Below, one piece after another: positions 7,999 through 49,010 of a stretch of DNA of 64,000 bases. The stretch's first letter is position 1. Every line of letters begins with the position of its first letter. Below the pieces are notes generated by a model. That model worked only from the letters and a program-made list of their open reading frames with translations, ran no database searches and was not told where the DNA came from. Both the position numbers and the translations under genes were made by a program. Source of the stretch: Bacteroidota bacterium (GTDB taxonomy: Bacteria; Bacteroidota; Bacteroidia; Bacteroidales; VadinHA17); the NCBI GenBank assembly GCA_022561875.1, contig JADFQJ010000006.1:1-64000 (forward strand), read 5' to 3'.

Positions 7999-8079
7999 TG
8001 GAATTATGCCTGCCCCGCAAGGAAGTTTACCCTGCCTGCCCTGTAAGGAGGAACGACTGTATCGGGGTGAAATTGATTG

Positions 8080-8116
8080 CCCGGTGAAATTTGAGGTACG
8101 AAAATATTTCACCGGG
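8080..8116. repeat. Inverted repeat of the TTTCAC-GGG family
   Basis: CCCGGTGAAAT at 8080-8090 pairs perfectly with ATTTCACCGGG at 8106-8116 across a 15-base loop. It lies between hpt and adk in a 294-bp gap without a credible gene. The arms differ by one base from those of the element at 43608-43659 (CCCTGTGAAAT/ATTTCACAGGG), so I group them as one dispersed family. Confidence 0.7.
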
Positions 8117-8224
8117 GGAAGGAGCTGTTTCTACAGGGGAATGCTGGAAGAATGGAGTATAGTATTAGGAAATAGTGTAAATTCTCACGAGATATTCATG
8201 ATAACAATTCAATTTTTCTTAATA

Positions 8225-8874: not shown

Positions 8875-8945
8875 TCATTAGGGAAAGATTTTGATCCATG
8901 GTAATGCTTTTTCCTGAAAGACAAAGTTTTAACCGGATTCTAAAG

Positions 8946-8984
8946 GTTGAAAAAGGATTTTGCGAGGAACGAAGTGACGAAGCA
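8946..8984. repeat. Dispersed repeat copy (adk-obg gap)
   Basis: The stretch starts GTTGAAAAAGGATTTTGCGA and continues GGAACGAAGTGACGAAGCAA. The reverse complement of 43528-43566 carries the same 20-base start and a very similar continuation (GGAGCGTTAGCGACGAAGC). The two copies are over 34 kb apart in opposite orientation, and no gene covers either. The GCGAGGAACGAAGTGACGAAGC core is a type of intergenic repeat met in many bacterial genomes. Confidence 0.65.
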
Positions 8985-32148: not shown

Positions 32149-32216
32149 AAATATATTATGTCATTTTATATATATTTCATTACACATGGCTGAAATAGAA
32201 TTGTAATTTCAAAAAA

Positions 32217-43215: not shown

Positions 43216-43437
43216 CCATACAGCAATTCACTAACTTCTCAGCTTATAAACTTTTCAACACCGCATCACAACTCTTTTGTTTCTGTTATCCGGTTTTGTT
43301 TCCAATAACGCCGGATGCAACGTTTGTAGTTCTATTTGGAGCCGGTAGTTCCGGCGCTTTTACTATACTTGCCCGTACCCCGGGTGGCGCTGTAAATGAC
43401 GATTCACATACCTTTTAAGCATAATAAATAACTCTGA

Positions 43438-43567
43438 TTTTGCGAACGCAGTGAGGCAATCTTTCATGACTTTTCATAAAGCCCATGTAGGTTTATTATT
43501 TGGCTTACCGGTTATTTTGGGGAGATTGCTTCGTCGCTAACGCTCCTCGCAAAATCCTTTTTCAACC
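43438..43567. repeat. Dispersed repeat arranged as inverted pair
   Basis: TTTTGCGAACGCAGTGAGGC (43438 onward) and GGAGATTGCTTCGTCGCTAA (43520 onward), which continues CGCTCCTCGCAAAATCC, are related as inverted arms about 55 bp apart. The right arm is the reverse complement of the copy at 8946-8984. Confidence 0.6.
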
Positions 43568-43607
43568 ATTTAAACCACTTTCGGGGTGTAAACCATTTCG
43601 CGAACTT

Positions 43608-43659
43608 GCCCTGTGAAATGCTGCTTCGCAGCAGTGGCTCCGCCACTATTTCACAGGGC
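43608..43659. repeat. Palindromic element folding as a three-way junction
   Basis: The outer stem is GCCCTGTGAAAT (43608-43619) with ATTTCACAGGGC (43648-43659). Inside are two hairpins back to back: GCTGCT-TCGC-AGCAG (43620-43634) and AGTGGC-TCC-GCCACT (43633-43647). The same layout recurs at 48931-48968. Confidence 0.8.
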
Positions 43660-43931
43660 GAGTGAGTGAAATGTCTCATGAGCAGGTTAGGGCGATGGAA
43701 TGTGGGAGCGAGTAAACCACCGAAAGGGTTAACGATTCTAAAACCCCGTCAGCGGTTACAAACCCTGACGGTGGTTTGGTAGAATTAATGATAATGACAC
43801 ACTTCTTTGAACACTCCCGGAAAAGAACCAGTAAAGCATCAAACCTGTGTTCTTTTTCATTTTGATTTATTTGTGTTTTTTTATGGTTGGTTTTTCAAAC
43901 CGTTCAGACCGGGTATTATCGGGAAAAAAAC

Positions 43932-48884: not shown

Positions 48885-48930
48885 ATTACAATTAATTAAA
48901 ATAAAAATGTTTAATCTGATATTAGACTAA

Positions 48931-48968
48931 TGAAATATTGCTTCGCAATAAATTTTCGATTTATTTCA
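48931..48968. repeat. Second palindromic three-way-junction element
   Basis: The outer arms TGAAAT (48931-48936) and ATTTCA (48963-48968, continuing CACAGGG to 48973) enclose ATTGC-TTC-GCAAT (48937-48949) and AAAT-TTTTCG-ATTT (48950-48962, counted with overlap). The layout copies the 43608-43659 element with different stems, so pairing appears conserved rather than sequence. It lies between the acyltransferase and DUF2490 genes. Confidence 0.7.
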
Positions 48969-49010
48969 CAGGGTGAATTAAAAAACATAATTATCATTTT
49001 TTCTGAAAAG

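Follow-up and report, generated by a model that had tools for sequence, protein, structure and literature searches.

The window, by which we mean the whole analysed stretch of 64,000 nucleotides, contains three palindromic elements. The features to which we refer throughout are as follows.

8009 to 8139, forward strand: a 131-bp nested composite with B-type outer arms (right end GAAGGAGCTGTTTCTACAGGGG), one or more D-like modules on the left and an A module inside.
8077 to 8117, forward strand: the A module within this composite, with the core TGAAATTTGAGGTACGAAAATATTTCA; the genome has 31 copies of this module in all.
43216 to 43931, no strand assigned: a gap of 716 bp that separates convergent genes and consists at least partly of repeats, among them the element at 43605.
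43411 to 43575, no strand assigned: a second, unrelated repeat, which is a long inverted repeat adjoining the element at 43605.
43605 to 43662, no strand assigned: the three-way-junction element, with limits that lie within a few bases of the match ends of 16 other loci.
43605 to 43619 and 43648 to 43662: the outer stem of this element, CTTGCCCTGTGAAAT and ATTTCACAGGGCGAG; its two arms occupy 43620 to 43632 and 43633 to 43647.
48921 to 48978, no strand assigned: a decayed three-way-junction element, with its core at 48931-48968 and the right foot CAGGGTGAA; the left foot is lost.

As had been noted in the sequence-only reading, all three elements lie between long open reading frames, although two short frames (93 and 99 aa) overlap the element at 8080. 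The stretch at 43608-43659 indeed consists of an outer stem with two adjacent hairpins, and as DNA it folds into a three-way junction (-22.6 kcal/mol, z -7.8; none of 200 shuffles folded as well). Once the feet are included, the paired unit extends over 43605-43662 with one wobble, and it scores 85.5 bits against the junction model described below, of which the element is itself a row. The element at 48931-48968 has the same architecture, as stated, but folds weakly. Its arms, ATTGCTTCGCAAT and AAATTTTCGATTT within TGAAAT/ATTTCA, have very similar counterparts with both feet present in other genomes, and it matches the junction model at 55 bits, being again among the rows that built the model. 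Decay of the left foot accounts for the weak folding (-4.9 kcal/mol, z -1.7, equalled by 13 of 200 shuffles). At 8080-8116, the 11-bp arms were confirmed (fold z -4.9), but what had been taken for a simple relative is rather the innermost hairpin, and thus one module, of the nested composite at 8009-8139.

Within the window, the pattern TGAAATN{5,35}ATTTCA occurs six times against 1.4 expected, and none of 100 shuffles reached six; two of these matches, at 32191 and 33505, may be chance. The motif ATTTCACMGGG, which was picked after the elements had been seen, occurs five times against 0.07 expected. Throughout the genome that carries the window (the host), TGAAATN{5,35}ATTTCA was found 157 times, compared with 16 times for the backward-read pattern. 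The core of A, taken from the copy at 8085, has 31 copies in the host (up to 3 mismatches) and the right end of B has 57 (up to 2 mismatches), with none of either when read backward, which excludes chance as the origin of the three palindromes. Of 60 genomes searched, counting the host, 12 have the right end of B; these 12 belong to a single family, and none of 24 genomes from the other families of the order has it.

When 30 of the 31 A-core copies were compared by their flanks, a nested build appeared, in which B is the outer module and A mostly lies inside it; L034 was off-centre in this comparison, as its match is elsewhere in the locus. The outer module B has the form CTTGCCACGTGAAATGCGAC...GAAGGAGCATATTTCACTGTGG and measures 42 bp when empty; C, D, E and F are further modules, placed at fixed points of the composites. 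Identical composite types recur at many sites, with lengths mostly of 42, 84, 117-118 and 151 bp (74 rows). The idea that element length is a multiple of 7 (42, 84) fails for C (34) and D (33). A module carries a 5' foot of the type YYYRCC and a stem that is mostly TGAAAT/ATTTCA (D, E and F have other stems), and it encloses a loop of 15 nt, a short one, a pair of mini-hairpins or a further module. Comparison by eye of empty and filled forms placed the insertion point of A at GCGACG|AAGGAGC, that of C at CCACG|TGAAAT and that of D and E at CCCTG|TGAAAT, and no target duplication was visible at these nested insertions. A single unpaired base can be placed in the 3' arm of B and of most A copies, with overlapping loci included in these counts; the A copy of the window lacks this base, its stem being perfect. 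A stood alone, outside B, in 3 of 22 copies, within arrays in L056 and L089 and next to weaker repeats in L060; two other candidates, L054 and L131, were read as diverged B contexts. Both kinds of element favour intergenic positions: long stop-free frames contain 20 of 74 B copies and 3 of 25 junctions, compared with 79% and 62% of random points, respectively.

Across genomes, the three-way junctions were traced by the pattern TTGCCNNNTGAAATN{5,30}ATTTCA, which 14 of 60 (host included) contain; read backward, it matched once in each of two genomes that lack the forward pattern. The insides of the junctions differ widely, for example GCTGC..GCAGC with AGTGG..CCACT, AAATC..GATTT with AATGC..GCATT, and CCGCT..AGCGG with AATGAC..GTCATT. 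With the foot and outer arms as the sole criteria, 40 of 68 matches in the collected loci contained two perfect adjacent hairpins, compared with 0.6% of shuffled insides; this set has insides of 22-34 nt, excludes those with a nested TGAAAT or A core, and counts some palindromic copies on both strands. In total, 33 junction rows were collected, from which three were removed as chance (L005, L059 and L146), and the remaining 30 comprised 25 distinct junctions. Alignment A1 consists of these 25 minus L241:405 and L250:976, which have other arm lengths, plus the window element at 48931; alignment A2 additionally omits L002 and L229.

Among 24 aligned junctions, 90% of cells were paired, a percentage that is biased upward in that the script selecting the A1 rows, 48931 excepted, demanded two hairpins; slid-register controls gave 34-44%. 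Double changes occurred at 14 of the 26 pairs. The number of double-changed cells was 70, compared with 27.2 in shuffled alignments, and none of 500 shuffles reached it; leaving out two rows of other arm lengths gave the same picture (61 cells against 24). Further pair types showed no excess in the 24 junctions (27 versus 26.5 shuffled). At an E-value of 1e-4, a covariance model built from 22 copies picked out eight places in the host, and 20 of the order's 295 genomes (14 families), the host among them, gave matches; 18 candidates were scored per genome, the E-values are rough, and the matches of the host, G108, G225 and G309 were viewed by eye. The expectation that a structural family would have further copies and covarying stems was therefore borne out on both counts.

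In a search without any demand on the foot, the junction feet were mostly of the TTGCC, TTACC, TCACC or CTGCC types. Of 50 junction arms, each read on the strand that was selected for its purine loops, 34 have a GNA triloop; the GCGAAGC type of DNA mini-hairpin is described as extraordinarily stable. Wobbles had no overall strand bias in the 25 junctions (27 G.T versus 25 A.C), and we dropped them as a pointer to the active strand. In the arms and inner stem there were 17 G.T against 8 A.C, and the three outermost pairs were reversed (10 against 17). In GTDB contigs, the core pattern was found in at least 99 stretches. Among the matches listed, about 86 were judged real, and all of these were titled Bacteroidota or a subgroup of it except one Neomarinimicrobiota; about 13 of the matches listed (Geobacteraceae, SAR324, Acidobacteria, Dehalococcoidia, Siphonobacter and others) have no hairpin foot and look like chance. 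Viral contigs, plasmids and phages gave no match to the queries used, namely one 241-base composite or the core pattern only.

We compared the three sites of the window with those of congeners. Both neighbour genes of the 43605 element were found together in G001 and G004, and the element is absent from both informative congeners, where the aligned coding ends are separated by 38 bp (G001) and 18 bp (G004), compared with 722 in the window; G002, G003 and G006 (only one side aligns) and G005 (the contig ends) are uninformative. The element at 48931 is absent from all four congeners having the gene (G001, G002, G003 and G005). The composite at 8009-8139 is absent from three of three informative congeners: G001 aligned on both flanks without the whole unit, and G004 and G005, more diverged, also lack it; the contig of G002 ends there, and G003 gave no match. 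The empty site of G001 holds a short tandem array. Absence from all informative congeners points tentatively to gain in the host.

These absences also bear on the idea that selection acts on the RNA, with the elements serving as terminators or as processing sites, the latter of which the sequence-only reading had put forward. The strong folds and the covariation would fit such a role, as would the finding that two of four copies in G108 (L321) begin at the stop codon of an ORF, of 663 and 666 aa. However, no Rfam family was matched at gathering score (the lone match, at E 0.99, is chance), nothing is conserved at the orthologous positions, and the nested composites and the heptamer targeting described next would be left unexplained. 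We regard a structured RNA as highly improbable.

The flanks of B follow a site rule. B is directly preceded by G in 73 of 74 copies, and the seven bases before and after B match at five or more positions in 58 of 74, whereas 200 shuffled pairings averaged 14.6 and never exceeded 25; when the comparison was shifted by 1-6 bases, between 0 and 4 of 74 still matched. The left flanks have period 7 in 49 of 74 copies (1 to 6 for periods 5, 6, 8, 9 and 10) and the right flanks in 35 of 74 (0 to 3 for the same periods), and the match is strongest at the element and falls outward. The right flank starts with T in 55, G in 13 and A in 6 of the 74 copies. Integron attC sites were considered for the G|TT boundary and rejected, as right flanks often begin with other bases. 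Heptamer arrays are rare in the window, with one period-7 run in 64 kb by our own criterion and three short rows reported by Tandem Repeats Finder. The arrays may be either the target or the product of B, and the short array at the empty 8009 site of G001 fits a prior target or a scar equally. Together with the absence at orthologous sites, this site rule upholds the insert-like character of the palindromes, in keeping with the earlier proposal of REP-like elements or small mobile sequences.

The matching heptamers could also be seen as the 7- to 8-bp target duplications of classical MITEs, that is, relics of a DDE transposon with the TGAAAT arms as terminal inverted repeats. The 7-mers at both ends of B are exactly alike in 18 of 74 copies, compared with 12 exact adjacent units on the left and 3 on the right, and a 7-bp target duplication at B may be masked, the target itself being a 7-bp tandem array. 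Several observations speak against MITEs: the nested insertions have no visible duplication, the CTTG at the 5' end has no counterpart at the 3' end, and the left flanks are already heptamer arrays in 49 of 74 copies, as is the empty site of G001 in short form. Moreover, no pair of ends was observed to enclose a gene in about 1.17 Mb of loci (overlaps included; loci rather than whole genomes), where most half-ends belong to diverged or nested copies and a few are truly one-sided (e.g. L083 and L155). We consider a MITE origin unlikely. It is highly improbable that the elements are by-products of replication slippage or template switching in repeat-rich DNA that arose with no transposition: the association with tandem heptamers would be natural, but units of 42, 84 and 118 bp with fixed ends occur at many sites in several genera, and heptamer arrays are rare in the window.

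A linked REP-associated tyrosine transposase (RAYT) had been proposed as well. PF01797 was searched in the host and 34 relatives and then in 12 further genomes, the resulting loci were scanned for TGAAAT hairpins, and these searches revealed no clear RAYT link. The host has three Y1 matches, with other hairpins at their loci as judged by eye. TGAAAT hairpins occurred in 2 of 62 Y1 loci, both from one genus (g28) and ambiguous there. In two more of 19 Y1 stretches (L206 and L212), a junction lies within 0.2 kb, 96 and 147 bp from the Y1 genes; these genes have their own, different repeats, like the other Y1 genes read, and neither they nor any other Y1 gene was accepted as cognate. A GT[AG]G foot at the hairpin was not seen among the junction feet, and the B feet are partly fixed by the search pattern. 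At L193 (G048), a unit with two neighbouring TGAAAT hairpins is repeated at spacings of 564 and 856 bp, and two copies flank a Y1 transposase gene with the third outside.

One form of a REP-like origin would be that the elements are REPs of a RAYT known in Bacteroidetes (subclass 2.6, or Bertels group 5, with atypical flanking structures that have copies elsewhere), with the gene lost or located elsewhere. Atypical structures of this sort are reported in Bacteroidetes (PMC6006769), and the Y1 gene of genus g28 sits between two such hairpins; these hairpins are, however, part of larger repeated units with a third copy outside the pair that encloses the gene. In family f1 (21 genomes, host included), all ten genomes with junction-pattern matches have a Y1 match (two weak) and the four genomes without Y1 have no element, whereas seven have Y1 but no junction-pattern match. 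Different hairpins accompany the other Y1 genes read, and the co-occurrence is broken by G024, which has 12 B ends but gave no match to PF01797, although this genome is 89% complete and a gene may have been missed. On balance, this sub-case is conceivable but doubtful.

Taken together, we lean towards the explanation that the palindromes are a multi-copy family of small mobile elements which are non-autonomous, act in the manner of REP sequences and are moved as a folded single strand by a nuclease acting in trans. We call the family REP-like, a variant on a known kind and no proven REP, and its mobility is inferred from sequence comparison. Movement or copying would act on a unit folded as a single strand, which replication exposes, the mover would be a strand-specific nuclease of the HUH/Y1 type supplied in trans, and the paired shape would be kept rather than the sequence. 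Such retention of shape would explain the stem covariation, and also why a stem that receives an insertion keeps its old pairing and gains just a branch. Nested insertion without duplication, the one-sided foot of B, the unpaired base in the 3' arm and the structure kept despite sequence change resemble single-strand elements (IS200/IS605 and REP; PMC6006769 and PMC8266576), and by this analogy the elements may be handled as folded single-stranded DNA. A stem bulge is reported to be required for REP activity in E. coli (PMC8266576). Against the REP-like explanation stand the Y1 loci scans, in which the cognate enzyme was not found, the lack of a GT[AG]G foot and of a wobble strand bias, the window A copy without an unpaired base, and the count of pair types, which is no higher than in shuffles.

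As for established classes, the elements are short, multi-copy, intergenic palindromes like canonical REPs, and the GT[AG]G foot and flanking tnpA-REP gene of the latter were not found (junction feet; 62 Y1 loci). In a REPIN, two REPs of opposite orientation form the unit; the elements are not built in this way, since their arms differ in sequence. The nearest known structure is nevertheless the clover form of the REPIN, a REP doublet of Pseudomonas with pairing ends that is reported as miniature mobile DNA (PMC3116915): both have two hairpins inside an outer stem, are multi-copy and are non-autonomous. The elements differ in having two arms of unlike sequence, usually both with purine-rich loops on one strand, and in having no GTAG-type foot and no clear adjoining RAYT, and membership is not claimed. 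The CGTC REPs are likewise multi-copy palindromes, also reported from Bacteroidetes, without a dedicated transposase, but their stems are 8-9 bp with a CGTC tag, and they are not reported to form three-way junctions or to nest (PMC3733652). The structures of subclass 2.6 RAYTs share the phylum, genome-dispersed copies and non-canonical hairpins (PMC6006769, compared here by description rather than by sequence), whereas our elements flank a Y1 gene in one genus only, and ambiguously. Intergenic heptamer repeats with no evident mechanism, of the TAACTGA type, are reported from Beggiatoaceae, Cyanobacteria and Bacteroidetes (PMC4679880); the arrays described here differ in holding a palindromic insert exactly at the unit boundary. 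The titles and abstract openings covered by the literature search contain no description of such elements. The present family is a further REP-like system, from uncultured Bacteroidota, whose arms are unequal, whose modules nest combinatorially and whose address is a heptamer array; with these arrays and its fixed ends, target choice and the enzyme become directly testable.

More speculatively, and in our view with rather little probability, the folded element may itself be the preferred target. New modules would be grafted onto a hairpin at fixed points, either in the B loop or next to the unpaired base of a stem, so that older stems keep their pairing and growth is tree-like, and repeated insertion and loss after G at 7-base steps would build the heptamer arrays. 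If true, branched palindromes and bacterial heptamer arrays would be tied to one single-strand DNA enzyme.

Some further loci deserve mention. In the host, heptamer-like arrays (e.g. TTTTGCCAACTGCC) are also present at L017, close to a Y1 gene, and no TGAAAT element was seen at that locus. The inverted repeat at 43411-43575 has the form TTTTGCGA...AGGCAATCT / AGATTGCTTCGTCGCTAACGCTCCTCGCAAAA, with similar copies at about 15 other places, the half copy at 8942-8971 among them, and positions 43275-43382 of the window resemble loci L082 and L115. Six near-identical junction copies of G309 (L315-L320) lie in a common low-complexity flank of the AAATCTCAATGACCG type. Locus L321 of G108 contains four three-way junctions in one 7.5-kb stretch, near 1088, 3233, 5384 and 6028, and the flanks of these copies are similar, as if they had been duplicated along with genes.
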